Shown: piece after piece, positions 8,908 to 49,385 of the stretch
Layout: each line of letters begins with the position of its first letter
Position numbering within the stretch: the first letter of the stretch is position 1
The notes under the pieces: generated by a model
The model's input: only the letters and a program-made list of their open reading frames with translations
Told to the model about the DNA's origin: nothing
Databases searched by the model: none
Origin: Hybos culiciformis
Lineage: Eukaryota > Arthropoda > Insecta > Diptera > Hybotidae
Assembly (NCBI GenBank): GCA_964007475.1
Contig: OZ023275.1
Coordinates: forward strand, 15,665,829 to 15,729,828
Direction: 5' to 3'
DNA: 64,000 bases
Made by a program: the position numbers and the translations under genes

Positions 8908-9256
8908 TCAATGGCGCTGCGACCCAATTCGAGTCTTGGCCTCTTCAATTCTTCGCATCCATTGTACTCTATCTTCTGACACTTGTCTCCAATTTCTAGT
9001 GTTTAAGATACTCTTTGCATCCGCTTGCACACTGTCATTTCTTGCAATGCAACGAGATCTAGTTAATAATTTTGGGCCTCCTCAATGTGAGACTTGAGGG
9101 CCGCTGTTCTATAGAGACTTCTTGTATTCCATGTTCCAAATATCATGTCTATTTTCGATTTTCCAGGTCTTTTCCGGTTTTCCGTTTGTATCCGAGGCTT
9201 GTTTTGAGGTTTCGTAACTGTTGTCTTTTTTTACGAGGTGTGGAAGTTAACCCCAT
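8908..9256 (-). pseudogene. internally deleted RTE-like non-LTR retrotransposon
   Basis: Read on the minus strand, this joins the two ends of an RTE-type (craniofacial-development-protein-2-like) polyprotein. The 5' part, starting at the ATG at 9144-9146, reads IFGTWNTRSLYRTAALKS and, after one stop, LDLVALQEM (9036-9062). This matches the start of an apurinic-type endonuclease domain. Immediately afterwards the frame passes into the extreme C-terminus: NDSVQADAKSILNTRNW followed by QVSEDRVQWMRRIEEAKTRI and a stop at 8908-8910. The rest of the endonuclease and the whole reverse transcriptase (normally several hundred residues) are missing at a junction near 9035. An ATG-led basic segment (MDMGLTSTPRKKRQQ) lies upstream near 9256 in another frame. 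Family placement is by recalled motifs. Confidence 0.75.
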
Positions 9257-10296
9257 GTCCATCTTTGGAGGGCCGTAAGTTAGGGCTAGGGTATATATCT
9301 ATGGTTATATTTAAAAATGCATGCACTTTATTAATCACAAAACCAATTTTTTTTATTTTCAAAATTCCATTATAAAATATATACTCATACCTTGTACATT
9401 AGATCCTTTGGTAACAAAACAACAAGAAAATTCATACATTTTATCTCTTATTCTAAGGAATGAAAAAAAAATCCACATGTGTTCTTAAAAAATATTATAA
9501 GGTATTTGTTCAAGATAAGAGAATTTTTCAAAAATCGGTTGGAAAAAAAAAAGAAACAATTTTTTTTATGAAAATCATTCTGCAAAAAAAATCAAAAGCC
9601 TATATTTACATGGTTATGGCAATGAGCCGTTTTGAAATTACACACAGTTTTTATTTTAACTCTAACTATTTCTTATACTTAATCAGAAACATGATAAGAA
9701 ATATAAATTAGAAAATTGATGATTTTTCATTATGAGTGTTAATAATTTTTGATTGCGTTTTCTTTGCAAAGATTTAAGTTCCTTCTTGATCGACTGTACT
9801 GTCAAAGTAATCTTTATATCAGAGTCTTAGTTTCTGTTATACTACACTCTAGTTCTAATAGTTCATCAAAATAGTCAGTTTTCTTCATATAACACGATTA
9901 TTTAATACTTATGCGAAAAAAAAAAATGTCAATTCATTTTTCTTTTCTAGTAAAATAGAAAAAAATGTATAATATATTTCTGTATATCTTCTGATTATTT
10001 TAACTCTCATATTTTATATATTAAAAATAATAAAAGAAAGTGTTTGTTTGCTCTTTTAACTGAAAATTTTGTTTATATGCATTGTATTTTATAAATAAAT
10101 GAACAAATCAGAAGAAAGTAAATTGACATAACGTGCATAATAGTTTCTATATCATTTATAATATAGTTAAATAGAAATTTTGTTCAGAAAATATTAATGG
10201 ACAAGATTTTGATTGAGTAGATTAGTATAAAGTGTAATATAAAAAATTATTTAATTAGAAAATTTTATTCATTTTTAATATGTAATATGGCATTGG

Positions 10297-10597: not shown

Positions 10598-11636
10598 TCT
10601 AGTAGCAGCAATGTAGTTCATACTAACAACTTTACCGACTACAGATGCGAACAGAGCTGCACCAATACAAACATTTTTTTTTGTAGGCCAGTGTAATGAT
10701 TCAAAATTTCAATTGAAGACTATTTTGGTTGACCTTATGTATATATAATCTTTTGATATTTTTTTCAACTTTTATTTTTTAATTTTAATGGACTTAATGC
10801 ACAAATCTTTCTGTACTTTATAATACATAGCAGTTGGACAACACTCTTTAAACTTCTCTTAAATAAGGTAATAAGTTAAAATATTTGGATTAAATCTTTT
10901 CGCCTGTTTTTGCGTTCTTTTAATTTTATTTCTGTTTACAATTAATCTATATATATATATATAGCATAGCTTTATCAATGTTCTCGTTATATCTGATTCT
11001 TTTATAAAAAAAAAAACAATTTTTTTTAATTATAACTTATCCACATACTATACATATTATGCATGTATGATATATACGTTGTAATATGCGGTCATTTTAT
11101 GTCTGCTAATTTTTTTTATATTAAGTATGGCATCATAACATATTTCCTAGTTATGAAAGATGAGTAATGATTGCTCTATTTTTTTTTCCTCTTTTTTAAT
11201 TTATTTATACACGTATTATTAGAAAGAAAAAAAAATTTAAGTATTGAAAATTATATGCCTATTTTTTATTAAAAGAAAAATTTCTCAAGAAAATATCTGT
11301 ATAGTAAAAAAATAAATATAACAAAAAAAAAATATCTTAATTTAAGAAAACCAGCATCCCATAAAAAGAATATCTATTATTATTATTTATATTTTGCTTT
11401 CATAAGAAAAAGGGAAAAGTCACCTAATTTTTTATGGCATGTATTGTTATATAGAGAGTACTCTTGTACATAAAAATGATATATATATAGAAGAATTTTC
11501 ATCAAAATTTCTTATTATTTAAAATTATATCTTCTATTATATAATGTATGTAATAATAATGTAAATTACAAGAGATTATAAAAAATATCTGGGGCTTAGT
11601 AATTTGTAAACAAACAAAAAAAAATAAATAAATAAA

Positions 11637-12596
11637 GGCTCCATGAATTTTGACCGCATGAATTATGACCGCGACTGGCGGTCAAAATTCATTTTCAAAA
11701 TGAATTTTGACCGCGCCTCAATTTAGAAAACAAATGAATTTTGACCGCTACAAAATGTGCGGACAAAATTCATTTTTAAAATGAATTTTGGCCGCAACTC
11801 AATTTAGTAAAAAAATGAATTTTGACCGCGGCAAAATGTGCGGACAAAATTCATTTTCAAAATGAATTTTGGCCGCGACTCTATTTAGAAAAAAAATGAA
11901 TTTTGACCGCGACAAAATTTGCGGCTGTATTATGCAGAAATAGTTTCATCAAAAATATTACTTAACAAATATTGAAAATAAAAACAGCTTTTTCATACAT
12001 TTTGTACGGCATCCTTTTGGAAAAGGCCTAAAATCATTTTTAAAACGACACTATTTATCGTATGTGAGTAAAATAGGTAAAATATTTGTGGGGTAGACAC
12101 AAGGGGAAGGGGGGGCAGCAGGGCTGCGGGCGAGCGGTTGGTCAGTGGGATTTGCAGCTGGCGCCCTTGCCCTTTTGCTTAGAACACAATGTTTTATCGG
12201 AGGGTTGATTTCATTTTTTTGAAATAAGTCATTTAAAATGAATTGTATCTTCTCCATAACTTTTATGCATAATACTCGCGTTCCCGGCAACAACTCAATT
12301 TAAAAAAAATGAATTTTGACCGCGGCAAAATGTGCGGACAAAATTCATTTTCAAAATGAATTTTGGCCGTGACTCAATTTAAAAAAAATGAATTTTGACC
12401 GCGAGAAAATGTGCGGGCAAAATTCATTTTCAAAATGAATTTTGACCGCGACTCAATTTATAAATAAAATGAATTTTGACCGCGCGGTCAAAAGACATTT
12501 TGTTGCGCGGACAAAATTCATTTTAAAAATGAATTTTGCCCGCCCGTACAAACTTTTTCCGCGGTCATAATTCATGCGGTCATAATTCAGTGCCCC
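11637..12596. mobile_element. foldback-like non-autonomous element A (GAATTTTGACCGC repeats)
   Basis: A 960-bp unit whose two ends are inverted copies of a TGAATTATGACCGCATGAAT-type sequence and which is flanked on both sides by ATAAATAAA (11628-11636 and 12597-12605). The arms (about 11637-11930 and 12290-12596) are made of roughly 80-bp tandem units. Each unit is itself palindromic, alternating ATGAATTTTGACCGCG with its reverse complement. The centre is unrelated and includes a GC-rich stretch (12085-12175). Tandem-repeat arms and a 9-bp duplication are features of Foldback elements (MuDR group). The flanking duplication is low-complexity and so only moderately convincing. No transposase is encoded. 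Confidence 0.75.
12085..12175. other. GC-rich core of element A, shared in part with element B
   Basis: A G-rich stretch containing GGTTGGTCAGTGGGA (12136-12150), the same 15 bases found at 28362-28376 in the second foldback-like element, with similar GCGGGCG runs just before it. On the minus strand both read Pro-Thr-Asp-Gln-Pro followed by Pro/Arg/Ala-rich residues. This points to a common origin of the two cores, though not necessarily to a coding function. Confidence 0.65.
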
Positions 12597-12599
12597 ATA

Positions 12600-15500
12600 A
12601 ATAAAAAAGAACAAATCATTCAAATATATGAAATATTTATGTCAGTTTCATGTCAAATTCAAATTTACAATATTGCATAATTTATTATCACGTTTTATAA
12701 AAATAAATGTTTTTGTTGCTTTTTTATATAGAAATATTATTATAGTTTCGGTTTTCAAGTAAAATTAGAAGTTAGTCAAGAAGATAGTTATGTTAAAAGT
12801 TGCTCAGCTGAACGTATATCTTGCAGAGAAAGCTTGTGCGAAAAAAATTAGTAAATTAAATTGTTAGTACATATTTTATATATGAAAGTCTTGTGACTGA
12901 TAACTCTACTCAAAACTAGTTAGATCACAAGTAGTATAATTCTCAAAACAAAATAAACAAATTTTATTTTTAACAAAATCAAATTGTAAAAGATATCACA
13001 GATACAATAAGACAAAATAGTTAAAATAATTTTTTTTTATTTTGAAGGCTAACTTTAATATTGTAATGACAAAACTGAATTATACAAATTTTTTTCAGCC
13101 AAAAGTCTATAAATAATAAATAATTTAATTAAAATTTGTATTTCAAGGTATTGTCAACATGATTTATTGAAATTTATCTTATTGAGATTAAATCAATTAG
13201 GAAGTATTAATAAAGAAAAATTTCTTAATCAAGGAAAGATAACAATATTAAATAATAATGATATCGTAGCAATTTTAAATATATCCATTTAAAACTATAA
13301 AAGCTATAAAAGCTAATATTTCAGGACGAGCTGCATGTAAAAGTGTTTGTTTATTATTTCAAGATCCAATGATAACACATGGCTAAGAAATGCAATATAT
13401 AGGCTTTACAAACACTTTCCTGACTTAACAGTCTTAAACATAATTTTGTTTCTACAAATTTTTTTCATAAGTGAAGTAACAAAAAATATATAACCCTACC
13501 ACTAACAAACGTAATTTAACTGATTGCAATTTTCAACAATTTCAATTCCCATATTTTAGGACATTCCCATATACAAATATGCAGATTGAAAAAGTAACTT
13601 ATTTTAGATATTTCAATAAAAAAAAAAATTCAGAAAATTTTTGAAAGTCTAAATGCAGCTTAAACCCATTTATTACAGTTGACCTTAAGACCACAAGAAA
13701 AGGACACAAATATTCATCATCATTTGCTTTTATGGAAATCAAATTTCGTTTGAATAGGTGACAAAGCTTATTCAAAACTTAAAAGCATAAATGGCCCATA
13801 TATATTTAATAATATAAAAATTTTTTGTTAGGAAATTTTCAATCAAAAGTGCTTTAAAAAAATGAAAAAAAATTTTTTTCTTACTTAATTTTTTTTCATT
13901 TTTTTTTTTTTTTTTTCAAATAAAATCAATCAGAAAAAATGCCAATTATTTCTTTAGAAAAAAGAAAAGTAAAAAAAAAAAATTTTTTTTTTATCAACTT
14001 GGAAAAACTAAAAACATTTTCTATGTTTTTTTTTATATATACATATATACAAAAATTCAACAGAATAAAAAAAAAAAATAAAATAAAGGCCACAAAGAAA
14101 ATGAGTACAAGGCAATGTGAAAAAAGATAGGACTAACATTAAATACAACAAAATGTTTTTTCGAAATAAAAATAATAATAAAAAATAAAATAAATACTTT
14201 GCTTATATATGTATAAAATTGTGACAATAAGTCCTTGAAATATAAAGAATTTTGCAAAATTAGTTCATTAATTTCTATTTAGAAATAATTAACTTCAACA
14301 CAAAAAAATATATTTTTACATATTATTATATTAAAGTTGTTTGAGGCGTTAAGTCTCGTTATTGAATGGTTCCCCTTGAATCAATTAAAGTGGCATATTT
14401 ACAAAACCTCCTTTTTTGTACTGTTAACTTGCGAAAAGTAAGGAATGGCATGGTAGCACACTATGTATTATACATTATTATACTAGTTTTAAGATGTAAG
14501 GATCAAGGATCTAAATTTGAATGTATTATTATTATTATTACATTTTTAATGTAATGAATTACAATAAAAATTACATATTTGAGCGCTAACTACTAGTTCT
14601 TTGGCTCTAATTTATGTTCAAATTATTAAAAATTAATCCATAAAACATGTATTTAAAATAAACTATATCTAAGCCGATAAGGGCACTGATTTCAATATAT
14701 TGTTAAGTTTGTTCATATTTTTCCGGTTTCCAATACTTTACTATAGAATAGAAAAATTTGACATTGTGAAATCATGCATATTTTTTGCATTCTATAATTT
14801 TAACTAACTCGAAATCAGATTTCCATCAACAAAATAAATATACAAAGAAAACTAAAATTATGTCTTATATCATCAGATTTTTCATTGAAAATGTAACATA
14901 AAAAGCTTATCAAATCAATTTTGGTTTTTTTTATTTAGATAAAATGCATGAAAGTAATGACCCATAATTTTCCTCTTTTTTTTTTTTTTTTGTAGACATA
15001 ATGACATTGACCTACTCAAAACGAAAAAAGGATGTTACAAGTATTTTATCTAAAAAAAAATTAATTATCTATAATTATTATAGAAAATCGTTCAAAATGA
15101 TATAAACTATATATTTTAAACGATACTGAATTCAAAATTATATAAGAACCCTATAATTGTTGCAAAACTTATAAATCTTTGTATTTTTTTTTAATATATG
15201 AAGAATATATTTTTCCATGATTCGTTATGATTTTTATTATATTTAAATTCTATTTTTACTTCACTACAGCATTAACTATGGAAAGTGAAGTTTTTCGATT
15301 TAGTTTTACGTCCATTGAACTTATAATCTAGTATGGTAGACAGTAGAGGATCTGGAACATTTTAATACTTAGCATCAATTTTTTTCATATCAAAATTAAC
15401 TTCCTATTTTAGAAAATAATATATTTTTTTTGTTTTGATAAATATTTAAAATTTATTATTTAAACCTAATTATTATTGTTTTTTTTTGAAGCCACAGATA

Positions 15501-16890
15501 CTCGATTACATGCATATGTTGTTCATGCTATGGTATATTATATGATTATTACTTTTTTTTTGTTTTAATTAAAATTAATTTAAAATTGAAAATTCGTACC
15601 GTAAAACCATTATTGGTTAAAAAAGTTATTATGGAAAAAAATAAAAATAAAAATTACAAATAATTAATTAATTTTAAGTGTTTCAAAGTTGATATTTTAT
15701 TGTAATGAAAATTAATATTTGCAGGTAATCTACATTATTAGATGTCCTTTATCTAAAATAGAAAATATTCAAGGATATCATCATAAATGGACGGAATAAA
15801 TTATTTTTTTAACATTTATGTTTGTTTGTATATATTTCATGTAACTAATAATATTAGATTGCAAACTCCCGCCTGGTAAACATTAATAAAACACTTCTTT
15901 ATATTACATATATTTTTACTGTGCTTGTGTAAGTAAAGCTGTTTCCTATGCAACTTTTGTCATTTGATTTAAAATAAAAATGATCAATTTAAAATTGTAA
16001 AATGTACCTATGCATGGTTTCAATGAAGAAATTTTTATTGTGAGCACTACATTAAATGATATACACATATCTCTTGCAAATTGTAGATAAAGTTTTTTTT
16101 TTTACAAACTTTTCAAACGAACTTTTTAAAACGGAGTTTGTATAATCGTTATGCAAATTTTTTTTTTATAAAATTTAAATATTTACTGTCAATATAATAT
16201 CAAATGTGTGTGTCGTATCTCTGTATAATTATGAACTAATAGATTGATTGATTAACTATATGAAAGAATAATCAATAATGATGAAAGCATTTATAGAAAA
16301 TTTATGTTTTTATCATAAATTGGATGAATAATAAATGTTACAGTTTACTAAAGATAAAAAAAAAACTTATATTATTATTATTATTTTTTATTCTACTTTT
16401 TCCGAGAATATATATATATATTATGTACACAAAAATAAGTATGATAATTTTCTGTAATTAAAAGTCAATAATTAATAAGCATATAAATTAGGTATAGGTA
16501 GGTCTAAATGACAATAAATTCTATTTATAGCAATAAAAAAATATTTAAGCAATTAATTTTCTCATAAAGAATAAATTGAAAAGTGAAACCAATTTTTATT
16601 ACTTACTATATATAAGATTTAAGATATTATTATTATCTGAAAAAACGATAAATTTTTCATTAATTCAACAGAAAAGATATTAATTTCAACTTTATAGATT
16701 ATATGTGATAATTTAATATAACAAGAATCATTTGAAATATATAAGTAATATGAAAGTTATATGTGTATTTAAATATTTTGTAATGATTTTAGGTCGATCG
16801 CCAATAAATATTTATATTTCAGATATTTATTTCCTTTCAAATTGCCATTTTCAATTTCAAGAATCAAAAATATTTATCTAATTTTCCAAT
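12600..16890. other. AT-rich stretch, no gene seen
   Basis: Around 13.1-13.4 kb the sequence is slightly less homopolymeric, but I could assign no frame. The remainder is low complexity. Confidence 0.55.
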
Positions 16891-16894
16891 TATT

Positions 16895-17430
16895 TTGTTG
16901 GCGCAATTAAAAAGTTCTGCTTCTACTAATTATGATAAAAATAAATACATCAAAGAAATTAAGAACGTTATTGAAGAATTTGGTAACCGTTTCGAAGATT
17001 TTCAATAACTTGATAATGTGGTTTTATTTATGAGTTTTCCATTTGAGAGCAATATTACAGTAGAAACAATTATTGCAGAAAACCTTTCAACTATTTTTGA
17101 TATGGATAACATTACACTTGAAGCAGAAATTATTACTTTACAAAATGATATTTATATTAAAGCAAGAGCTTTCGAAGATTAATTCTGGAAATGTTTAGCA
17201 GAAGATAAATATCCGAATCTTTAATGTGCTGAAAATTACGCGCTGTTTTGGTTCGACATATTTGTGCGAATCAGCATTTTCACAAATGAAAATAATAAAG
17301 TTAAAGTACCGAACTAATTTAACAGACGAACACTTGGAATTTTAATCCCGAAATATTGCTGTCTAGTCTTACTCCTACTTCTAAAAAAAGTAGATCGCAG
17401 AGGATTTTTACTGCGCGTGCTAGATCTTAT
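16895..17430 (+). pseudogene. decayed hAT transposase (EPM2AIP1/SCAND3-like C-terminal half)
   Basis: Frame pieces read in the order typical of hAT-family transposases related to SCAND3/FAM200/EPM2AIP1: KYIKEIKNVIEEFGNRFEDF, then MSFPFESNI, then FWKCLAEDKYPNL. After a frame change comes the dimerisation region, FGSTYLCESAFSQMKIIKLK followed by YRTNLTDEHLE. At least three in-frame stops and one frameshift interrupt it, and the N-terminal BED finger and catalytic region are not recognisable. The minus-strand frame over the same bases is a shadow. Confidence 0.85.
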
Positions 17431-18184
17431 AGAAAAATCAGTTGACACCCCTAGCCTATATGAATAACCTTTAAAAGGATAATTAATAATGGTGACTTGG
17501 TTGTCCAACATGACCAAAACTGAAGAATTCAGACATTTACATTTAAAGCTGGACTTCATTATGTATTGAGTTAATCTTTCTAGAAAAAAAAATATCAAAA
17601 ATTATTTTTCTCTAAATCTTGCAGAAAAATTTGTCAATTTCCTTATATAAACAATTATCTTATTTAATGATTATATTATTTCATTTTGAATGTCGATAAA
17701 AATGCCAATTACATAGCATAAATACATAACATACATACATAATTCAATATTCAACTATTCGGATTGACAAAAAAAAAAATATATTCAGTATTTGATTCAA
17801 TCTATTTTTCATTTTGACATAATTTAATTTCATAAATTTCCATTGTCAATATAATGTCACCATTCACCAATATCACCTTTATAGAGTAAAAATTAATGAG
17901 TTATATAATGGTTTTTTTTTGTTTATTTTTTTTTTATGTAGGTATGTTATTTTATTCTTTTTGATAGAGCTTTCAATAAAAGTTAAATCACAATGGACCA
18001 TTTACGGCTATAGCTTCTGCATTGTCCCACAAAAGCGAAATTTTAATTATTATAATACCAAAATAATAATGATTTTAATCTGAAGAGAGATAATAATAAT
18101 AAATAGTTTTTGTTGTCTGGAATATAGTTTTCAATATACATATAATCTAAATATTATTATATCCATTTTGAAAGAATATTATTT

Positions 18185-18567
18185 CGTCGGTCGGCGACGC
18201 AAATCTCGTAAGTCTTGTTTTTTACAAAACGTGTTTTTTTTAATTTTCCTGTCCTTTTTGTTGATCTGCGTCGATCTACATTCATAAAAACTCTCTAAAT
18301 ATTTTTAACGCACTTTTATTGTCGAAAAAAAAAAATTCGAAAATTTAGGTGGGTATCTTTTGTGGCCAAACATTGCACATTTTTGAAACTAAGATAATGT
18401 ACTAATATTCGTAAGAAGCTACAGATTTTATTCAATCCATATCGCTTCGAAATTAGCCAATCTTAAGCAATTTTGTGCTAATTATAATAATAAGAATAAT
18501 ACAGTTTTTTGTGTCTCCTGTAAAATTTTCAAAAACAGACTTACGAGGTTTGCGTCGCCGACCGACG
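18185..18567. mobile_element. 383-bp MITE with CGTCGGTCGG termini
   Basis: The terminal inverted repeats are about 31 bp with one mismatch (CGTCGGTCGGCGACGCAAA, then CTCGTAAGTCT). ATTT lies directly outside both ends (18181-18184 and 18568-18571), consistent with a 4-bp target duplication, though ATTT is common here. The interior is AT-rich and non-coding. The superfamily is undetermined. Confidence 0.75.
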
Positions 18568-18579
18568 ATTTGTAGATTT

Positions 18580-21500
18580 AAAAATATAAAAATAATATGT
18601 GACAAAAAATAGGACAGAAGACATAAAATATAGAGTAAAGTAAATAAATTTCATAATATCCATGGTTTCGATTAGGTACCAGAGCTTGTAGTTTTCTTTT
18701 ATAGTTTTCTTATATCTTTAATTAAAATATTTCGAACTTCAACCAACTGTCTTTTGTTAGAAATTTGTATCAAGTACATTTTTATATATTAAGTAAAAAA
18801 AAAAATCGTTTTCATATTTAGAACTCCAAACCATTAATTTTCTACTTGTTAAAGCATAAATTTTGATGAGATAGTACCAAAAACAATATTGTGATAAAAA
18901 ATACCTAAAGGGCATTATGCATACGTATGTGTTTATAGTATACAAGTAAATTGAACTGAATTCTATCTTAATTCGGATTAATGATTTTCACAAGTTCCAT
19001 AATGTGTAAATATACTATAATCCTTTTATTGATATTTTTAATAGTTCTACCGTGTTCTTTAATAAATAAAATATGCATGTTGTATAATATGTAAAACATA
19101 TATTATACTTTTTCACTTTAATAGTATACTGATTATTTTTATTTCGCCGTAAAAAAAAAATGTAATGTGTGAAAACATGAAAATATAAGCTAAACTTTTC
19201 CAACTATAAAAGTAACATCAATTTCAATTATTTCGTTTAAGTCAACAATTTTTTTTTTTTTTTTTAACTTTTGTTTTGTCGAAAAATGTTTAAAAGTTAT
19301 ATTTAAGTCGATTAGCTCTTGCGAGAATAATTAGCTTATGGTCTCTTCAATATAATCAAATTGATATTGTTGATGTGATTGTATATACAATTTTTTTGCA
19401 ACCAAATGTTTTAATCTTCCCATATGATCCTTGGAACAGTTTTTTCCTTAAAATTCTAATTTTATTTTTAATAATTAAGAAAACTCTTTGATATTAATAA
19501 CCGCTACAACATAATAGAGCTCTTTTATTCTACCACCTTAATAATATAATTATAATAATTTCTGCTTAATTTTCAATTGTTATTTGAAATTTTATACAAG
19601 TTTATTACATAATTATGATATGATGATTAAAAGCAATTTATTTCGAACTAAATATCATCATTAAATTGAATGCTATATAGTATATATATACATTAAAGAG
19701 CTAATAATGTCCACCGCATTATTTTTATTAAGGTTAATTACCATAGAATTGATTTTTACCCGCATTTGAGGACAAATACTTAAAATAATAAATTAGAATT
19801 TTCGAAATTAATCTGCAACGAATTTAAAAATTTTTTTTTTCCCAAAAATATACATTGAAATCCTTGCATAAACGTAAATTAGGGATAACTATGCTATAGT
19901 ATAGTATTATATTCAAATATCCAATAATTTCACTTGTTTGTTCATTATATTCCATTATACATAATTGCTATACTATATAGATCATATGAAAATCCATGTT
20001 TGCATTATTAAATTTAAATCATAAGAATATTATTTTTGTTTTTAATCCGTAACTGCGATTTCCTCAAAGATTTAATTCCTAATCTTAAAAAAAAGAATTT
20101 TTTTTTTGGGAAACTTATTAAGTATCATAAATTATTATTTTTGTAATATTATCAAATTATATCACAAATAATGGTATTTCGTTGCAAAAGAACCGATGTG
20201 TATGAAAAAAGGACTAATGTTAAAAGAAGTGGGTAAAAATGATATTCGAAGCACAGTCAGTAAATATAAAAATAGAAATGAATATTATGATTTTTTCTTT
20301 TTTATCTTCACATATTGACACGATCAAATGATCTCCTTTAAAGTGTCATTTAAGAAATATTAGAAATGAAGCTATAACCAAGTCTTTAGATTGTTAATGA
20401 AGAAGACTTGGGAAATTTTCATTATGTATAATAAGATACCTACATAGGTAGTCAAAAAAAAATATTAACTTCATTAATTATTATAGTCTGGAAAAACATA
20501 TGAACAAGTTGTATTAAAAAATAAAAATACGAACTATTTTTTATTGCTATGTTAATCAGCTAATTTTGCTAAAATAATTCACTAGTTCGTTGGCAAGGGA
20601 TGTAAAAAAGAAGCTATTTGTTTTTTCAGTACACACAATAAACTGCTAAGATTTTGAACAATACCAATAATTTTAAGCAAAGACACTTTAAAGCCCTGCT
20701 GTTCTAATATTATGGAATACATATTAATATTATCATAAATTTTCCAAAACTAATATCATAGTAAATTATTTTTCTTATATAATTAAAAAACGAATATTTA
20801 ACTGAAAATATAATTCATTGACATACATATTATATTGCTGCATAAAACAATAATTAAAACCTTTTCAAACTGAAATATCGCGACCTATATTTGAATTTTC
20901 CCATATACTACGCGCCTATAGTAGTAATATTGTTATGTATAGTATAAAACAATAACTTTAGGCCCAAAAAAAAAATTAAAAATCGTAATTTTTCATTGAC
21001 AATTTCTCACTTGGGATTAAATTTTATAGAAATTGATCATAATTTATTACCAGTAAAAATATAAATTTTAAAATTTTTTTTTATCATTATTATTATAATA
21101 TAAAAATAACAATATAACAATAATAATACAAAATTTATCATAAATTTTCATCACTTTATAACATGTGTATATAAAAACAAAAAGACCAAAATAATAATAA
21201 TAATAATTATTTAAAAAAAAAAAAAATTCAAAACAAGAAGCGAAAAAGTTGAAATCTATTTTTTTTTTTTAACTGAAAATAACAAAAATCTGAATAAAAT
21301 ACTGAATAAATATGGGACAGTGTATCAGCAGTGCGATAATGTTATTAAAAACTCTTTTCACTCTCATTGTCCTTTTTTTTCAACACATATGTGTAAATAA
21401 AATACATAATATATATATATATATATTTATATACATAAAGTATGTAGGTAGAAGAGAAAAAAATATATATGAAAAAAAAATTATACGTATTTAATTTTAA

Positions 21501-21780
21501 AATCTAACAATCCTTTTCATATAGTTTCATAAAAACAATGAACCAAAATGTTAGGTTTAAATTGTTAAAAATTTATGTGTTATAATCTTAAGTTGTACAC
21601 CCTATTACTAGCAGGTGTATTATCTGGAATATTCACACATTGCATAATCAATAAAAATAAATTTATCAGAAAAAATCCAATAAATTAAAATGCAGTAAAA
21701 TCATAATTTCGTGTAATTTTCTAGTCAATTTAGTTTCATAAATTAAAAAAATGTTAAACATATTTAAGTATTAAGTGTAT
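18580..21780. other. AT-rich stretch, no gene seen
   Basis: No supported gene or transposon; ATA and AAT microsatellite-like patches near 21.1-21.2 kb. Confidence 0.55.
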
Positions 21781-21785
21781 ATATT

Positions 21786-22106
21786 CAGGTGTGCGCAAAG
21801 GTTCATGCATGGGCAGCCATGTTCGAAAATCGTAAAATACTGTAGAGCCGCAAAATTATTAATGCAAACTTAAATTTGAATTTTATTACTTAATTAAAAG
21901 CATTTTTTTTTTTAAATTCTTATCTTTCAATAAATTTATTTATTATATAAAAAAAACTTTAATATTACATTTAATACATTTAAAAATTATATTAAAATCA
22001 TGTAATAAAATACAAAATCTCACGTACAACTTAATAATTTATTGAGCCACAAAAATATTGTCAAAGAGCCGCATGCCGCTCATGAGCCGCAGTTTGAGCT
22101 TGTCTG
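21786..22106. mobile_element. hAT-type non-autonomous element (GAGCCGCA family)
   Basis: It starts CAGGTGTGCGCAAAG. The right end, read in reverse complement, is CAGACAAGCTCAAACTGCGG, followed by GAGCGGCATGCGGCTC. This resembles widespread hAT MITEs that begin CAGGGGTGGGCAAACTGCGG. GAGCCGCA also recurs near the left end. The 8-bp flanks (TATATATT and TATAAGAT) match only in part. Confidence 0.6.
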
Positions 22107-22109
22107 TAT

Positions 22110-25100
22110 AAGATTTTATATTATGTTTAAACATTTAACATTTTAATTAAAGTTCAAAAATTGTTTTTTTTTTTTTTCAAATGTTTGAAACCTTATATTT
22201 CTGTTAATGATTCTCATAAATTTTAAAGAAATTTTAATCAGTTTCATATTCCATTTTCCATTATCTCTCATTTGAAATGCAAAATTTATCTATTTTTACC
22301 TAACAGAAATATAAGATTGAAACTTCTAAATTAACATCTTTGTTTTATAAATTTTGACGTGTTTTTGTGAAAATGGAGCACATCTTTTTTGTTTTCAATA
22401 TGACATTCTTTCCGGTGGCATCGTCCTGAGAAAACGGATTTATCAAATTAAAATACATATTCGTACAATTACTTTAGTTTTATACCACAAAACAAGCTAT
22501 TGAATTCAAAGGAGCAAAAAAAAAAATAAAAATGGTTGCAAATTTTTCAAGCATAAGAGCACTCAATGCAAAAATTTCAAAATATTACACTGCAGTGCAA
22601 AAAAAAATTATTTATTTAATGTTGTAACATATTTCTGGCAATCAAGTTAAATAAAAATAAAAGGATATAAATACATTTATGTGTATAAAAATTTTATATT
22701 ATTTTTTATAAGAGGGATGAAAACAGGGAATAAACTTAGTTATGAAGATTTTTTTTTTTTTCTTTTTGAAAAAGTATACAATTTTCATGTTTAAGAAAAT
22801 CTTGAACACTATATATATTAATCGAGCGTTCCCAACTAAGTTCTTCCAATTATTTTGATAAGGTTTTTATAATCATTTTATTAAAATAAAAATTAAATTA
22901 TTTTATTAATTCTCATTTAGCAGTATGTTAGCCAATCTAGTTCAAATACTATGCATATAATCTGATAGGCCTAAGTTTTATATTAAGAATTTAATAAATT
23001 TTGAACCAAAATTCTATTTGCACTTATCATGTACCTAACCGAACTCCAATTCAGCTTTACTAATTTATATAAAATATTTATATTTCAAGAACCAAAAAAG
23101 TGTGAATAAATTTTATAAGAAATAACGTTACAAAATAACTAAATAAGCCAGTTTTGTTGTTACGTTACATTTTTTTTTACATTCAAATCCCTATAGATCT
23201 TTTACATAAACTTATCTATAGAGATCTTTAACATACTAAAATGTATCATCACAACATAAATAGTAAAAAGTTCATTTTTACTACAAATTCAAAAAAAAAA
23301 ACATTTAATTTCTATGATTCATCATACACAAAAAAAAACTTTAACATATGGTGCAACTTAAATAAACATATTCTAGTATATAGGAAAAGTTTCAAGAACT
23401 GAGAATAGGTTCACATAAAAGATTGTATATTTCTTTTTCAAATGTTAAATATTTCTGATGCTTGCAAGTTTAATAAAATAGTCCCTAAAATAAGCACAAA
23501 GTCAAATTGGAATCGGAATAATAAGAATCTAATCTGCAGATGTAGGTACTTTCCATCATGTTCTCAATTTATATACGATTTTCTCGTTCGATTGCAATTC
23601 TTACAAGTACTTTTTTCACCCAAAGCAAACAATTTAATTTTAGGTGTTTTAAAAAAAAATAAAAATAAACCTGTATAAAAATCCCAAGAAAATTCATTCA
23701 TAATTGATAAAACTACAAGACTAGCTACTTATAATATGAGTTATAAAAAAAAATAGGTTATGTCATTTTCTTATCAGATTTTTTTTTTTTGAAGAATCAT
23801 GTTCATAACATTGTTTTATATACATGCATGCACATTACAGATATATGTACTGAAAAGAATTCAGTTTTGAATATTGTTAATATTAAAAAAATATTGAATT
23901 GATTATTATATATACTACGTTTATGCTTCGTTAAATTGTGAAACAATACAAAATTTTCCAAAAATATAATAAAAAATAAAATATTAGAAGAAAAATAAAT
24001 ATAAAAATAAAATGTTTCAGTTTTGGCATCGAAATCCACTTTGCATTTAGAACTGCTGTTAAACTGTTCTTCACTCATAAGTCAAAATTTGGCTTTTATT
24101 ATGTAAGTAGTATTATACACGGCTTTTAATTTTGATATTATCAATATTTTGGTTCTAACTTTTTTCTTCAAAATTTTAAAGTTACGGGGTCATTATGTAC
24201 CAATTTTATTTCAAAATCTTTCTTACTATGTTGTTATCCACAATCCACTATGGATTTCCTTCAATTCGAAATTTTTATATATATAGGGCTATTAATTTTG
24301 ACATCATCGAAATTCGGGTTCAAACATTTTATCCTCTTATTAGCTAATTTTTGAAATTTTTCTTACTACCCATGCTATTATTAAGATTAGTATGGCGACT
24401 ATGTTGGAATGAGCTGTGTTGGGAGTGCAGAACAGAGAAGTGAAGAAAAATTAAACAAATATGTTGATAGTAAAATTAAGAAGAAATAAAAACACACTAA
24501 AAATATTACTATCTAGTTTTCTTTTAAATAATCATTATTTACATGGATTTAATATACAATATACTATGACACGACGATTGCAACGATTGTAAAACTTTTT
24601 GTCGCATTTGGTTGAATCTAAAGCAATTTGAAATAAAGAATAAAAAAAACTATATGAAAAACTCTATTAATCATAAAATTTTATTGAAAAAATATTTAAG
24701 AAAAAAGTTTTTGTTTTTGTAAGTTTTTTTTTCATTCTTTTTCAAGAAAATTTATAGAAATGTAATTTTTTCTTCTTTTTTTTCATTTTTTTTGTCAAGG
24801 AAATAAAAAAGTTCATTTTTCATTGCACATAGATTTATTTTTATTATACAAATTTAATAAGAAAGAATTAACTTTGCTTGTTAAATGAATTTCAATTTTC
24901 GATTCATATTGCGATACTGCAAAAAAAATTTTTTTTTTTTACAAAAGCTAAATGTAAAAAATTGTCCCCTTTGATTGACTTATTACAAACTTTCTGACCT
25001 AATTATTATTCAAGGGTGAAAAAAGAAAATGAATTTAAAATAAAATTCCAATAGATACTTAATTATTTGAACCGGAATTAAATCAGAAATGAAAAAAAAT

Positions 25101-25300
25101 TGTTCAATAATTAATACGCTGTAATTTTTTAGGAGTGGACCGGTAATAGGAATTTTAATTTAGTGGGTCAGAAGATAGTATTTTGAAATTTGCTTTCTTA
25201 TAGCATTAAGGACGTGTTTCTTTGATTTCAACAGATATAAAAAAGTTTATTAAAATTTTATTTAGCTCAATTCGAATTGATAGTTATAATTTTTTTAATG
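22110..25300. other. AT-rich stretch with the 24.1-kb duplication only
   Basis: Nothing beyond the tandem pair at 24121-24385 is recognised. Confidence 0.5.
24121..24385. repeat. diverged tandem duplication, period about 166 bp
   Basis: GGCTTTTAATTTTGATATTA (from 24121) and GGCTATTAATTTTGACATCA (from 24287) begin two related copies. Each goes on through a GGTTCAAAC-like segment to a TTTCTTACTA segment. Confidence 0.6.
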
Positions 25301-25307
25301 TTTTACT

Positions 25308-25606
25308 TAATATTTTTATGGCAGGAGAAGCCGAAACTATACTTCACGTGCTCTGCCAATGTCCAACGATTCGGACTAGGAGAGCAAGGATGTTAAGGGA
25401 TTATTTCTTGCAGGACCTGATGGACCTGCAAAGACATGGCTTATGCCAACGGATTTAATTAGGTTTGTGAAAGGAGTGAGTTGGTTCGATGGGGAATTAT
25501 AGGCCCATCGGGTAGGACAGTACAACGGGCAAATTGCCTATGTACAAGGAGATCTTGGCAATTTCAGACCCGCTACAACCTAACCTAACCTAACCTAATA
25601 TTTTTA
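25308..25606 (+). mobile_element. 5'-truncated non-LTR retrotransposon with (AACCT)n tail and 11-bp TSD
   Basis: TAATATTTTTA occurs exactly at 25308-25318 and again at 25596-25606, bracketing a roughly 277-bp insert. The insert encodes the C-terminus of an RNase-H-type (I/LOA/R1-like) retrotransposon ORF2: GEAETILHVLCQCPTIRTRR, then after a +1 frame change PTDLIRFVKGVSWFDGEL and a stop. A short 3' UTR follows, then a tail of about four AACCT units. Truncation at the 5' end and the target duplication are the mark of target-primed insertion. Confidence 0.85.
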
Positions 25607-25609
25607 AGA

Positions 25610-28130
25610 ATAAAATTATAGATGAAAACAGAATATGCTGAGGTCGTTGCAATAATTTTTATTAACATTTAAAAGGAAATAAATTCTTGTTTCACTCCAC
25701 TGTTTACAATGTTACACGTCAAATAGAACCAAGTTAAAAAAAAACTGAAAATGTGACATAAATCGCAATAAAGTTTAGGAGAAATTATAGTTAGTTGTAT
25801 TTTAGTTAGATTTTACAAAATATTATTTCGCCTTTTATTCACAAATTATTTTTTGATAAAATTTTACCAATTTAGACTAAACTTAGAACAATCATATATA
25901 AGATGAACTCTACAAAATCCACATTCAAATAGTACCATTCAGTAGGAAGATATTCCTATCCTTTTATTGAATCGTCTGCCTTTCTCACTATATAATAATA
26001 ATATCTCTATGAATGAAAAGAAAAAAATTGTAATCTGTAATAATAAAAAAAAAAGTTTACATGATCTATTTTATATACTTTTCAGGCAATGTTCCTAAAA
26101 ACCTATTTTATATTGCTAATTCAATTTTGGTAAATTCATAAAAAATTTAACCTAAAAAAATCATAAATTTGTCTACTGCATTACTGTATAAAAGTACGTG
26201 ATATTTTTTATTAAAGAATACAAATAATAGAATATTTTCTTTCATACAAAATGTATGTATGTAGTAGGTATATGAATTTATTCAGAGTTCCTTATTCTTT
26301 AAATTGACATTATTAATAATTTTTTTTTTTAAGATTCAACTAAAAAATAAAAAATTTATTAGATATTATGTTTATTGTCAAAGAAAAATAGTTTCTTTTA
26401 TTTTTCAGCTATTGTGTATAGGGAGAACAAAATCATAGTAACTATAATTCAATGCATTCATTTGGTTTAGTTTTTTTTTTTTTTAGTCCACATTTCACTA
26501 TTCTATTAAATTTATATAGTTAAACATTTCATATTCATCATAATTTTTGTAAATCTTAAAGATTAAACAACATTCCAAATTCGTAGTATAATATCTTGTT
26601 TCATAAATAACTCGTATTGACGCTAGATAGATTATAGCATTCGAACCATCGAAATTTTTATAATTAATAATGGATAGTGAAACAGCAAAATTTTCATAAT
26701 TAGACCTTCAAAACAAAAAAAAAATACATTCTTAATTTAAAATTGAATTTAAAAATTAAAATTTATAAATGATAAATAATAAAGTGAAGAAAATTTTTGT
26801 TGGATTTACAAGTTCTATATTCTCTATTTTTGTTGAAATTTTCATTAATGATTGGCTAGAAAAATATCTCCACATCTGAGACAACAACAAAAACAATTTT
26901 TGTATAATATTTGACTATATGAACATAATAATTACAGTAAAACAATAAGTGAAATTAATTTAAAGGCTGTTATTAAAAAAATAACTATATATAGAATTTT
27001 CACCTTTTATTTTTTAGACGAAGATAATGAAAAAATTGTGGTTTTAAAATTTTAATTCATACAAAACATATAATACAAAAAAAGTATATAATACAAGAAT
27101 TAGTTTTAAAGAGCCTAAAAGCTGGAACATGTAAAATCTTAGTAAAAAAAATATAAATATTTAAACGGTTTGTGGTTATTTTCTAAATAAACAACAAAAC
27201 TATGATTCTTAAATTGAAAATAAAAGTTAATAAAAATTATTTTTAACCCATAGAGCCAGTATGAATTCTAACAATAGAAGCTGATCTAAAATGCAATGAA
27301 AAGAAAACCGCACCATCTTTTTTACATGTATATGATTTATTTTTAAATATTTTGGTATTCAAATTGGTAAATTTAATTTAAGCATTTTATCGTTTCAGTT
27401 ATGTAAATAATAGTTATTGTAGATATGTATATATAATGTTCATTCTTATTTATACATATATATAACTTAAAACAGAAACCACATATAAGATTGGCATACA
27501 AAAGTTATGTTTATAGTACACATAAATACACATATAAATATACGTTTGTATACTCTTGTTTGGGTTATATTACGTGAATTACAAAAATTATTAAAATCGA
27601 TGTAATAACGAGTGGATACTATGCTTAAGCATTTTAATTTTTTCTTCGTTCCGAAAATATCAACTACGACATTACACAAAATTGGAGCCCGGAATCCTTT
27701 GAATATAAGTCAATTTAATAAAAGACCATTACACTTTGGATAGTGAAAACTGGTGGAAGAAAACACTAATCGAGAACTTATATTATAAGGTAAGAGAAAT
27801 GTTCATGTCACTTGAATCAACAATCTTAGTCAATCAATCTATACTTATTTTGAAAGAAGCAAATTTTACGAAAAATATTTAATCATTCGAAAGGTTTTAT
27901 TTTCCAATATTTTCACTGATTAGAAGATAAAATTCATTTCATCAATTTACTTTGAAAGTGATCTGTGGGTTTAATAAAAAAAAAATCTAAATAACGATTT
28001 GGTCGTGAGACCAAAAAAGGAGTCTTTATGTAACTATGAAATACGTTTTCGTAGCCTGTTTTTTTACTACTATGAAAGTAAGTAAAGATGGATTTACACA
28101 AATCGAGCAAATACAATTTGATGAAAAAAA
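25610..28130. other. AT-rich stretch, no gene seen
   Basis: Homopolymer runs and scattered short frames without coding character. Confidence 0.55.
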
Positions 28131-28390
28131 CGATTTCCGGACAGTTCACCGAAAATCAATTCACCGAATAGCAATTCACCGAATAGCAATTCACCGAATA
28201 GCAATTCACCGAATAGCAATTCACCGAATAGCAATTCACCGTATGAGCAATTCACCGTATGAGCAATTCACCGTATGAGCAATTCACCGAATAGTAATTC
28301 ACCGAATAGCAATTCACCGAAAAACGAGAGGGGGTGGGGGCCGGCGGGCGGGCGGACTGGTGGTTGGTCAGTGGGACGGTAAGTCATATA

Positions 28391-28585
<195 letters not shown>

Positions 28586-28595
28586 GACTTACCGT

Positions 28596-28627
28596 CAATT
28601 CACCGAAAAACGTTTTTCGGTGAATTG
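28596..28627. repeat. 32-bp perfect palindrome at the inner edge of the right arm
   Basis: The repeat unit CAATTCACCGAAAAAC is followed with no spacer by its exact reverse complement, centred on ACGT. It marks the point where repeat orientation flips inside element B. Confidence 0.9.
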
Positions 28628-29699
28628 CTATTCGGTGAATTGCTATTCGGTGAATTGCTATTCGGTGAATTGCTATTCGGTGAATTGCTATTCGGTGAAT
28701 TGCTAATCGGTGAATTGCTATTCGGTGAATTGCTATTCGGTGAATTGCTATTCGGTGAATTGCTATTCGGTGAATTGCTCATACGGTGAATTGCTCATAC
28801 GGTGAATTGCTCATACGGTGAATTGCTATTCGGTGAATTGCTATTCGGTGAATTGCTATTCGGTGAATTGCTTTCGGTGAATTGTCCGGATCCCGAAAAA
28901 AACAGAAAGAGTTAGAGAACTTTCATATAAAAGTAGCATATGTCTGAAAGCAGATAGTATGCTTTTATAGCAACATTATAGTAACTGGAAAATTGTTTAC
29001 AATATTCAAAATTGTGCCATAAAAGCCAAGTGCTCTTTAAAAGATAAAGATTTTAAAAAGTTACTCACAGCAAATTTCATTTGTTCGATGTCTTTAAGAC
29101 TTAAAACTAATTTTGAATAATTTGTATTTCAACAAACAAAATTTTCCTAGGCTATGACTTTTATATAACAATCTTTATAATGTTCATTTATAATTTAAAT
29201 TAAATATTTATTTTCAATATATATATATTTTTTTTGAATTGTAATCATCGTAAAATATAAATTCTGCCATTGATAGAGGTTATACACATATTTTCAAAAT
29301 AAACATAGATATGAATGGAAAAATATTATATCTAAAAAAAATAATAATAATAATATTCTAAGCAGTAAAAAGGACGAAGACCCCAATATTACCAATTTCA
29401 TTATTATTCCCAAAAAATTGGCACCTAAAATTTCTGCCATTATTTTTCTTCTATTTTTTCATTTTTTAATTTTTTTATTTAAAAGATTAAATGCCGCAAA
29501 CTTGCCAAATAGCATTATAACATTTTTCCTTCTAAAAAAAAAAAAAAAACAAAGTTTTTTTTTTAATAATTTGAAACTCCTGCAGTCCTGCGAAAAAAAA
29601 ACTTAAATTTTATTTGAATTCAGTTTTTTATTAAGGATTTATGTAATGAATAAATGCAATGCATAATATTGCAAAATTGAAGTGCAATATTGAAGTGCA

Positions 29700-36100: not shown

Positions 36101-36490
36101 AGAAAAGAAACAATTTTATTAATATGATGAAAATATTGTCAATATAATTTTATTCTAGTATACATTTTCTTATTAAAATTTTCTGTGGAATATTGCACAT
36201 CTTATATACTTATAAACAGTTTGGCTTAAGAACAATGTTCAGACTATAAAAAAATTATTTGGTTTCATACAATCTAGTTTTTATAGATTCAAAATTTTGT
36301 TGATTTCATTTGGAGCGTAAATAAGATTCTTTCAATTAAGAAGGGTTCATTTCCATATGATAAGAAAACTTCACTATGTCAATATTATTATTATGGAAGG
36401 AAATAAAGGACAGCTTACAATATAATCTCAATTTTTGAATACTGACTTATGTACTTATTGTATAAACTAAAACCAAAAACGTATACTTAT
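30170..36490. other. AT-rich stretch, no gene seen
   Basis: An imperfect inverted pair (TGTGTATGCAG against CTGCACATACG) occurs near 30.32-30.35 kb. Otherwise it is low complexity with no supported frame. Confidence 0.55.
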
Positions 36491-36498
36491 ATAATCAT

Positions 36499-36847
36499 GT
36501 GGATGTTATTGGATGGGTAGTTACCCACGGGGAGCTTGTTCCTCAATATTTAAGCTTTATAGAATTTCTCATGACCATACCAGGATCATCTTGCTCTAAC
36601 GAGAGAAGATTTTCTGTTTTGCTACGTCTCGTGAGCTCGACAATGATGCAAAATTGCTTGAATCATGTTTACTTCTTACATTCTGATGCAGTGGACAAAC
36701 TCGACCTCGAAATTCCAGAAGAAGCTCAGTTTTTGCACTACATATAAGAGTATAGTTCGTAATTTTCCAACTCCAGCAAATCATGTCCGTTCTGTCGGCC
36801 TTGCTAATCATAATGCAAACAAAATAGTTAAACAAAAATTATATTAA
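36499..36847 (+). pseudogene. hAT transposase C-terminal fragment (dimerisation domain)
   Basis: The frame contains EFLMTIPGSSCSNERRFSVL, then LRLVSSTMMQNCLNHVYFLH and DKLDLE. This matches the hAT dimerisation pattern (LLxIPxSSCxxERxFSxLRRLK...STMxxxRLNxL...). A few residues are missing between LRLV and STM, suggesting a small in-frame deletion. The frame stops at 36745-36747, and a frame-shifted remnant (SVGLANHNANKIVKQKLY) continues to 36847. It is a third hAT lineage, distinct from those at 17 and 29.8 kb. Confidence 0.75.
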
Positions 36848-44453: not shown

Positions 44454-44985
44454 CAGAGCCGTCCTAACGTATTTCGTACCTATGTGCTAATAATTTCCTT
44501 GCGCTCAAATCATAGAAAAATTAATTAAAGGCTTATATGTCATATATTAAAAAATAAATAAATAAAATATTAAAAAACCGTTTACCGTCAATTCACCGAA
44601 AACACAATTCACCGAAAACACAATTCACCGAAAACAGAATTCACCGAAAACACAATTCACCGAAAACACAATTCACCGAAAATTATAGACAGGTTGAGTT
44701 CGGTTAAAAAATCGCTGATACACAATTTACCGAAAACACAATTCACCGAAAGCGCAATTCACCGAAAATTATAAAAAATCGTTTAATACTATTTTCGTTG
44801 AATTGACGCGACACGTTAAAAAACATACAAGCAAATTTTCGGACTTCTAATTTTCACCACAGATTTCCAAATGAAAATTCCTCTTTTTGGTTTTTTTTCT
44901 TGTTTTATTGTTATTAGTTTGCGCCCCTTGTATTTTGGCCCCTATTTGCTATAGCACAGTTAGCACATTGGATAGGATGGTACTG
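44454..44985. mobile_element. hAT-like MITE with 6-bp flanking repeat, carrying a nested tandem repeat
   Basis: The left end CAGAGCCGTCCTAACG and the reverse complement of the right end, CAGTACCATCCTATCC, form a mismatched terminal inverted repeat of hAT type. The right subterminal GCGCCCCTTGTATTTTGG is also typical of this MITE group. ATTTAG lies directly on both outer sides (44448-44453 and 44986-44991). Canonical hAT duplications are 8 bp, so this is either a variant or a partly mutated one. The interior is dominated by the CACCG repeat at 44584-44812. No transposase is present. Confidence 0.65.
44584..44812. repeat. one-armed copy of the element B repeat (CAATTCACCGAAAACA units)
   Basis: It begins ACCGTCAATTCACCGAAAA, identical to the inner junction of element B at 28591, and continues as about nine 16-bp CAATTCACCGAAAACA units with an interruption near 44685-44720. 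A short inverted match to its start (CGTTGAATTGACG) closes the block at about 44800-44812. It appears to be nested inside the hAT-like MITE. Confidence 0.75.
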
Positions 44986-48633: not shown

Positions 48634-49385
48634 ATATCGACCCATCCAAGGAAGATGTTGATAAGTCGAAAATCATAGTTTTGAGAAAAACGCAATTTAG
48701 TTCAAAATTTGAATAAACAGGATGTTTATGGTTCGATTTCAACGAAACTCACGGCATATGATAAAGAGCTTGAGCATGTTTAGGAGACAAATTCTTGACT
48801 CTTTATTCAAACTAAAAAGTACTATTTTTTACAAAAACAACTTAATGCACTGCACTGTTTTCATTAATACAGATTGATATATCGAGTTGTAAACATAATT
48901 AAGTAATTTCCGCCTTTTTTGCTGTCACACTCCATGTAAAATGTTGCCAACTTTATTTATAACCGATTGGATTATTTTTTGTCCAAGTAAAAAATTTATA
49001 AAATCCAACTCCGGGTTGACAAGTAAGTGTAAAACTGTTAAGAACTCACCGAAAGTTTTTGTATTATGTTTACAACTCTAGATGCAACCGTAAGAATTAA
49101 AAAAAAGTACGTGCATTAAATTGATAAATCTATATAACAATTATTTAAAAACTATTTTGTAATGTAAAAAGTTGATAACTGCTTTTATCAACTTTATGCA
49201 GGCAGATTTAAAACCTAAACTAACAATGCATTACGTTGTTTTTGAACTTATCTCAGCGATAGTTTTGGTTACAAAAAAACCGGTTTTTGATTCAGATAGG
49301 AAAATTTATTAGCTTACGTATTACAACACTCCCGTAAGAAGTTGACAAGTCGACTTATCAACATCTTCCTTGGATGGGTCGATAT
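48634..49385. mobile_element. MITE with perfect 36-bp inverted repeats
   Basis: 48634-48669 and 49350-49385 are exact reverse complements (TCGACCCATCCAAGGAAG, then ATGTTGATAAGTCGA). With TA taken as the duplication, the element is 48637-49382. With CGACCC as the terminus, the flanks would be ATAT. The interior is non-coding; an open frame crossing the right arm is not a gene. The lack of divergence between the termini suggests a fairly recent insertion. Confidence 0.85.

Follow-up and report, generated by a model that had tools for sequence, protein, structure and literature searches.

The Muta families of Aedes aegypti are reported to have target-site duplications (TSDs) of 8-9 bp and, in 10 of the 12 families with long terminal inverted repeats (TIRs), subterminal tandem repeats of 9-15 bp; one of them, Muta1, is a type-2 foldback with 12-bp units and 3-4 bp spacers (PMC5225508). 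Phantom elements have TSDs of 8-10 bp where these are given and a mini-satellite in the aphid elements, and Rehavkus has 9-bp TSDs together with a minisatellite (PMC6446971). For Tm1, a Mutator/foldback family of root-knot nematodes (Meloidogyne), the published account describes 9-bp TSDs, units of ~14 bp, asymmetric terminal motifs, a purine-rich motif at the inner arm end and, in the histone-hairpin group, a conserved middle stretch (PMC3169594). Galileo of Drosophila mojavensis is described as having one central region with the TIRs of three subfamilies (PMC3573991), and its tandem units are reported to hold transposase-binding sites (PMC3573991, PMC4079207). Here we analyze two foldback-like elements, A and B, in a 64,000-nucleotide stretch of the dipteran Hybos culiciformis (GenBank assembly GCA_964007475.1, contig OZ023275.1, C3:15665829-15729828; hereafter the window), which has a GC content of 23.7% and lies in a genome of 342.4 Mb. 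Our data suggest that A and B are probably non-autonomous Mutator-like foldback DNA transposons with one widely shared GC-rich core.

Like the Muta and Phantom Mutator-like elements (MULEs) as described, the elements examined here have long inverted ends, subterminal tandem repeats and non-autonomous copies with varied interiors, but one core occurs here across families with different arm repeats, which differs from that description (PMC5225508). The TSD of 8-10 bp, typically 9, of MULE foldbacks is found at A, B and a third window element, C (9 bp each), and at the further core loci A', E0, E1i and E2c described below (9-10 bp). Long inverted ends built from short tandem units are present in B, E2c, the arm kinds G and E1i and others; A- and G-type arms match in both orientations, their units being palindromic, and the inverted ends of C, adjoining its TSDs, measure just 37 nt. 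All of the Tm1 features listed above resemble features found here, whereas the Tm1 family has one arm unit and differs in this from the arms here (PMC3169594). The end of B, GGACAATTCA, resembles the Tm1 end GGACGATTCA, with 42 of 1,000 shuffles equally good. The Tm1 unit CGATTCAGTATCCGC was not recovered in B, where 503 of 1,000 shuffles were as good (165 on the other strand), or in A (222, and 977 on the other strand), and the Tm1 terminal motifs CGGTTAA/CCTACCC were likewise absent, the nearest by eye being CGTTTAC at the left ends of C and E2c (5 of 7 bases).

The nearest precedent for a core with differing arms is Galileo, although its subfamilies belong to the P superfamily and have 7-bp TSDs, as against about 2,500 core words and about five apparently unrelated arm groups here (PMC3573991). 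Tetris and DAIBAM of Drosophila virilis are similar in being modular foldbacks with tandem repeats inside the TIRs and TSDs of 8-10 bp, but in the published description they share the final TIR portion, whereas the shared part here is the centre (PMC4079207). We found no closer precedent in the open-access literature on foldback transposons, on nesting or hitchhiking, or on shared interiors with different TIRs. The view of an initial annotation of the window that this organisation is undescribed was nevertheless too strong, given the Galileo central region and its three sets of TIRs (PMC3573991).

Results

The match between the two elements centers on the 15-mer GGTTGGTCAGTGGGA, which occurs exactly at 12136-12150 in A and at 28362-28376 in B, as the initial annotation had reported; no further match with up to 3 mismatches was found in the window, and two matches appeared in 0 of 100 shuffles. 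These 15 bases are the longest word common to the two G-rich stretches, a length reached in 2 of 5,000 dinucleotide shuffles. Each core also contains one canonical G-quadruplex motif; the window has no others, and none was found in 100 shuffled windows. The annotation had further pointed to similar GCGGGCG runs and to the residues PTDQP in the translations, but the likeness preceding the 15-mer reflects composition when A and B alone are compared (1,421 of 2,000 shuffles score as high), and PTDQP, while indeed common to both, follows from the shared 15-mer and adds no separate evidence. From the window alone, the evidence for a core match is moderate. A coding origin of the core was rejected, as the joined translation of both cores gave 7 word-sharing candidates, none at E <= 10; an RNA origin was also rejected, since a search of Rfam gave no match to the window at gathering score and for the A core just one far below it (E 3).

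Our genome-wide search recovered 1,210 + 1,286 = 2,496 exact copies of the 15-mer and 0 copies of the same letters reversed. The 91-base A core has 418 candidates in the genome, and the best 40 of the 418, which were scored, all match over the full length at 96-100% identity. The exact patterns had 0 matches in viral_contigs and 0 in genome_contigs. A core consensus of ~45 bp, GGCGGCGGGCGGGCGG[NCTGGT]GGTTGGTCAGTGGGATTTGCGGC, is doubled as a palindrome in part of the loci, and in 19 of 77 loci two copies of the 15-mer lie within 60 bp of each other in inverted orientation. The first 100 listed 15-mer matches were grouped into 75 loci by hand (77 by a scripted 600-bp merge) and every fourth was read, giving 19 loci that were picked before their arms had been seen and that all lie at 0.25-18.4 Mb of contig C1.

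The left and right core flanks match in inverted orientation in 16 of the 19 loci. Such a genome search had been proposed in the initial annotation, and the result is the one it anticipated, namely many loci with one core between different arms, rather than a core found mostly without inverted arms. TSDs of 8-10 bp bound the elements in 14 of the 19 loci, and L030 and L042 have TSDs of 7 bp; in L032, L034 and L044, no pair of ends was found at which a TSD could be sought. Random point pairs, used as a control, gave at least 8 bp in 20 of 6,000 cases and at least 7 bp in 43 of 6,000, and the sampled loci with readable ends other than F (n = 10) all have TSDs of 8-10 bp. The 7-bp TSD of Galileo and the P superfamily does not fit this pattern, in which 7 bp is seen in 2 F copies, and a Helitron/HINE (DINE-1) assignment was rejected because no TSD is expected there.

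By their arms, five of the 19 loci are an element F alone (L028, L030, L039, L040, L042), one is F beside an E1i-like left end (L033), five are G-type (L031, L032, L037, L041, L044), four are E1i-type (L027, L036, L043, L045), and one each is A-type (L029), has TATAACCGCGAA arms (L038), has AACTCATCG arms (L035) or is a B-like half (L034). Counting B, E0 and E2c, nine arm kinds bear the core or part of it. The proposal of a tandem-arm foldback family is only partly borne out, since F, to which 6 of the 19 loci belong, has arms that do not consist of tandem arrays.

Element A (11637..12596, + strand) is a 960-bp foldback-like transposon with the ends GGCTCC.../GGGGCA... and an exact 9-bp TSD, ATAAATAAA, at 11628..11636 and 12597..12605. 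Its bounds are those originally annotated and are confirmed by two 960-bp copies, each with another TSD: A' (L015 4450-5409, TSD TCAAATTTC) and the L029 copy (TSD GTTGGTTG). From left to right A contains an array of GAATTTTGACCGC words in 81-bp periods (11637..11924, +), a remnant of an E0 arm adjoining the core (12029..12073, +; 95.6% identity over 45 bp to L001 9168-9212), a type-1 core (12078..12153, +) with its G-quadruplex motif at 12103-12130, and a right array and right end in 79-bp periods, oriented as the left array (12293..12596, +). The main arrays (family D11) have units of 79-81 bp in equal orientation on both sides. Owing to this palindromic unit, the left and right sides of A match in inverted (288 bp at 68%) as well as in direct orientation (237 bp at 83%), and the reading of the A arms as inverted tandem arrays was rejected in favor of direct arrays of palindromic units.

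Element B is a 763-bp foldback (28132..28894, +) flanked by the exact 9-bp TSD GAAAAAAAC at 28123..28131 and 28895..28903; the annotated element is real, although slightly wider than the claimed 28136-28890. The B left arm consists of 15-16 bp units, CAATTCACCGAATAG (28145..28325, +), and is followed by a type-2 core (28326..28376, +; G-quadruplex motif 28330-28352), by a (TA)n palindrome with GGTAAGTCATATAC shoulders (28375..28596), and by the right arm (28611..28884, - strand), which is the left arm copied inverted (137 nt at 99% complementary). The B arms match in inverted orientation only. The GGTAAGTCATATAC shoulder also follows a B-like unit in L034, and it recurs with this arm kind. As had been annotated, the arm units of A and B differ, and they are not detectably related (80 of 1,000 and 64 of 500 shuffles as similar).

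Element C (44579..44815, +; TSD TTAAAAAAC at 44570..44578 and 44816..44824) spans 237 bp and has B-like arm units, CAATTCACCGAAAACA, but is coreless. When 14,747 pairs of 9-mers repeated within 3 kb were scored for adjoining inverted ends, A came first (30), B second (29) and C third (28), and the next best score (24) fell inside the B arms.

We also read 260 kb elsewhere in the genome (C1:1-10000, C1:20.0-20.1 Mb, C1:80.0-80.1 Mb and C2:20.00-20.05 Mb) and found core-like sequence at four places, A', E1i, E2c and E0, and none in the 50 kb of C2. E1i (L009 2574-2875, TSD GCCCTAGCG) sits inside another foldback with TTGTACAA arms; this outer foldback spans L009 2122-3193 and has an 8-bp edge repeat, GTTAAGTT, the core-bearing E1i having been inserted into it. 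E2c (L019 2082-2990, TSD GCATAAGAA) has TTTATCGTATGGACA arms, a core that differs at two bases of the 15-mer, and an inner inverted repeat that surrounds the core inside the outer arms. E0 (L001 about 8911-9426, TSD CATAATACAG) harbors the first core part as a 40-bp palindrome and lacks the 15-mer. The type-1 inner domain is present in A, E1i and L038 and, as far as the 15-mer, in E0. TSDs of 9-10 bp bound all six core loci seen in the window and in these 260 kb (A, A', B, E0, E1i, E2c), and an nhmmer core profile built from five of them found only those six places there at E <= 10; blastn on this sequence less the C2 part also picked up three AT-rich matches to the A-core flank (E 0.004). Foldback-like elements that are coreless include C, the outer element at E1 and L017 2512-3236. 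A coarse inverted-repeat scan of the window and the 260 kb gave 29 clusters, 5 of them with a core; E0 and C were missed, and most clusters are other elements. Another stretch of 730 bp (L015 9304 to L016 33) has identical 25-bp inverted ends, CACGATATAG, and a flanking 9-bp repeat, GTATGTATG, and is a different transposon-like element.

Arm units were compared pairwise against 500 shuffles, and arm kinds were assigned by reading together with these comparisons rather than by blast clustering, which put 21 of 25 loci into one group, F, G, A and E1i types among them, partly through nested F copies that link the loci. Among the A, E1i, G, L038 and E0 units, 6 of 10 pairs showed a similarity reached by at most 2 of 500 shuffles, and the weaker pairs were reached by 11 (G-L038), 22 (E0-E1i), 27 (E0-G) and 62 (E0-L038) of 500. 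These five arms seem to have diverged from a single ~15-bp unit, which reads ATGAATTTTGACCGC in A, ATGAAATAAGGCCGC in E1i and ATGACATTTGTCCGC in G. The B and C units are related (0 of 500 and 0 of 1,000 shuffles as similar). The E2c, L035 and F units stand apart, with a marginal likeness to A for E2c (10 of 500) and L035 (23 of 500; for A-C, 26 of 500). The units thus fall into about five arm groups with soft edges; derivation of all arms from one unit is unsupported for B, C, L035 and F and marginal for E2c.

F, a plain palindrome whose ends are GGCTAAAGTGCAG and similar, has a type-2 core at its centre. Its TSD is 8 bp in 4 of 6 copies (L028 CAACTACA, L033 AAAACGTC, L039 ATTATTTT, L040 AAAAATAT) and 7 bp in L030 and L042, and L028 gives 9 if slippage is allowed; in the five free-standing copies the flanks match inverted only. 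Six G copies (L031, L032, L037, L041, L047, L048) have the F-G junction at one common position in the G arm unit, GTCCGCTAAAAATTTGA followed directly by GGCTAAAGTGCAG, with L037 and L041 one base off before the junction and L032 one base off after it. L047 and L048 also contain an uninterrupted G unit, TAAAAATTTGAAAAATCAATCG, and in L031 the arm resumes past F with AAAATTGA, which but for one base would be an 8-bp duplication. In L050, the first 8-9 bases of F are left at the junction and the core is lost. L049 is a G element of 456 bp between the G end words that consists of arms only, and L046 is a coreless G as well; L046-L050 were picked as short-span copies, so this mix is not a frequency, and the exact 15-mer is present in 12 of 20 G loci on C1 below 18.39 Mb. 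The shared junction in six G copies, the L050 footprint and the G copies without F show that a single F inserted into an arm of the Mutator-like foldback G and that the composite then amplified as a unit. The empty site that can be reconstructed in silico in G (L049 versus L047 and L050) makes this takeover step directly testable. L047 and L048, which lie about 55 kb from each other on C1, are nearly identical G elements in matching flanks, and this looks like a segmental duplication that took the element along. In L033, an F with a TSD of its own has inserted next to the left end of an E1i-like host, whose right end was not located.

Elsewhere, the window contains the genes for Rab18, for which the named proteins that match best come from Diptera (Anopheles, Lutzomyia and Hermetia, 84-85%), and alpha-tubulin, for which the highest identity among named proteins is to a hoverfly (72%), although animals from other groups score higher overall. 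A stretch of 385 bp bounded by inverted repeats, TCGTCGGTCGGCGACGCAAA (18184-18568), looks like a miniature inverted-repeat transposable element, with no 9-10 bp TSD found, and a 752-bp inverted-repeat stretch has ATCGACCCATCCAAG at both sides (48634-49385). A hAT transposase C-terminal dimerisation domain (Pfam PF05699) was identified at 36466-36744 (+; 22.2 bits against a cut-off of 21.4), and a short open frame at 23409-23675 (+) has a sub-threshold match to bacterial YidD (19.5 bits against a cut-off of 27) that is probably due to chance.

Discussion

If A and B are non-autonomous Mutator-like foldbacks, the enzymes that move them may be Muta/Phantom-type transposases encoded elsewhere. 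Their tandem units would serve to bind the transposase, drifting and being homogenised jointly within each element, and the ~15-bp unit of the largest group, which has changed together across an element, would be consistent with such a concerted drift. The other arm kinds may have gained the core by a nested insertion and trimming similar to that in G, by descent with diverging arms, or by copying from one palindrome centre to another, and one-sided cores such as those of A and B would be palindromes that lost half of their centre. The E0-arm remnant in A and the inner inverted repeat in E2c indicate that older layers lie buried in newer ones.

Several observations weigh against this interpretation. 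Nested insertion is directly seen in G and, less completely (left end only), in one E1i-like stretch, and we infer the route by which the core reached A, E1i, L038, E0, B, E2c and L035. None of the 10 window open reading frames tested holds a MULE domain, and the superfamily assignment is a putative one drawn from TSD length and arm form. The 19 loci come from one chromosome end and were picked by the exact 15-mer, so the conservation of that word among them is given by construction. An inverted arm match is lacking in L033, L034 and L044, and 11 of the other 16 loci have flanks that match directly too, because the A, E1i, G and other units are palindromic. One of 5 shifted-end controls also scored 30 in the inverted-ends scan, within the palindromic arrays of A (the others 22-25). 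G-quadruplex motifs are not constant either, being present in 13 of 19 sampled cores, and the other 260 kb contain 5 such motifs, 3 in cores and 2 outside.

A serious possibility, to which we give somewhat less than even weight, is that of one lineage in which the core was kept by descent while the arm units diverged and were homogenised in concert, with nested insertion a side story. The similarity among the A, E1i, G, L038 and E0 units, the alignments of E1i-type with G-type arms (about 66-68% over 150-240 bp), and the type-1 inner domain that A, E1i and L038 share, and E0 in part, all agree with descent. Against it, the G core is type-2, F-derived and located at one insertion junction, coreless G copies exist, and the B, L035 and F arms have no clear relation to that group, that of E2c being marginal. 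The proposal of the initial annotation that one family exchanges or regenerates its arms is supported in part: many loci do have the core between different arms, but the G core arrived by nested insertion and was co-amplified, and the A, E1i, G, L038 and E0 arms look like one unit that has diverged.

It seems rather unlikely that the core is a converting module, which break repair or template switching at fold centres would spread from one palindrome to another, unrelated one. In most loci read, the core does sit close to the fold centre with an arm on either side, the majority of sampled cores have G-quadruplex motifs, minimal cores lie directly within arms (L036, L044), and template switching has been proposed for Drosophila FB4 (PMC8277862). 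However, no conversion tract or breakpoint series could be demonstrated in the loci read, and trimming after nested insertion would look identical. We regard as similarly doubtful the broader possibility that the GC-rich, often palindromic core is a mobile centre in its own right, which colonises unrelated foldbacks by nested insertion and fold-centre copying and is then moved by any transposase that recognises its new arms.

An unrelated dispersed repeat that merely occurs in or near foldbacks is very improbable: the six F loci without tandem arrays show that the core exists apart from tandem-arm foldbacks, and L034 and L044 lack two-sided arms, but F is itself a palindrome with TSDs and inverted arms lie on both sides of the core in most loci of the sample. 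A chance match between two G-rich stretches, to which the few shuffles that reach a 15-base common word and the merely compositional likeness preceding that word could be taken to point, is refuted by the 2,496 genomic copies against none for the reversed word.

Transposon families are usually named by their ends, and here the middle is conserved while the ends differ. Galileo provides a smaller precedent for such a shared centre with different arms. If the pattern is general, arm-based classification of foldback elements would hide a shared passenger, and the layers of core, older arm remnant and newer arms would form a readable record of transposons taking over one another. Should the core prove to be a mobile centre of the doubtful kind considered above, a single transposon parasite would persist longer than the arm families that carry it in turn.

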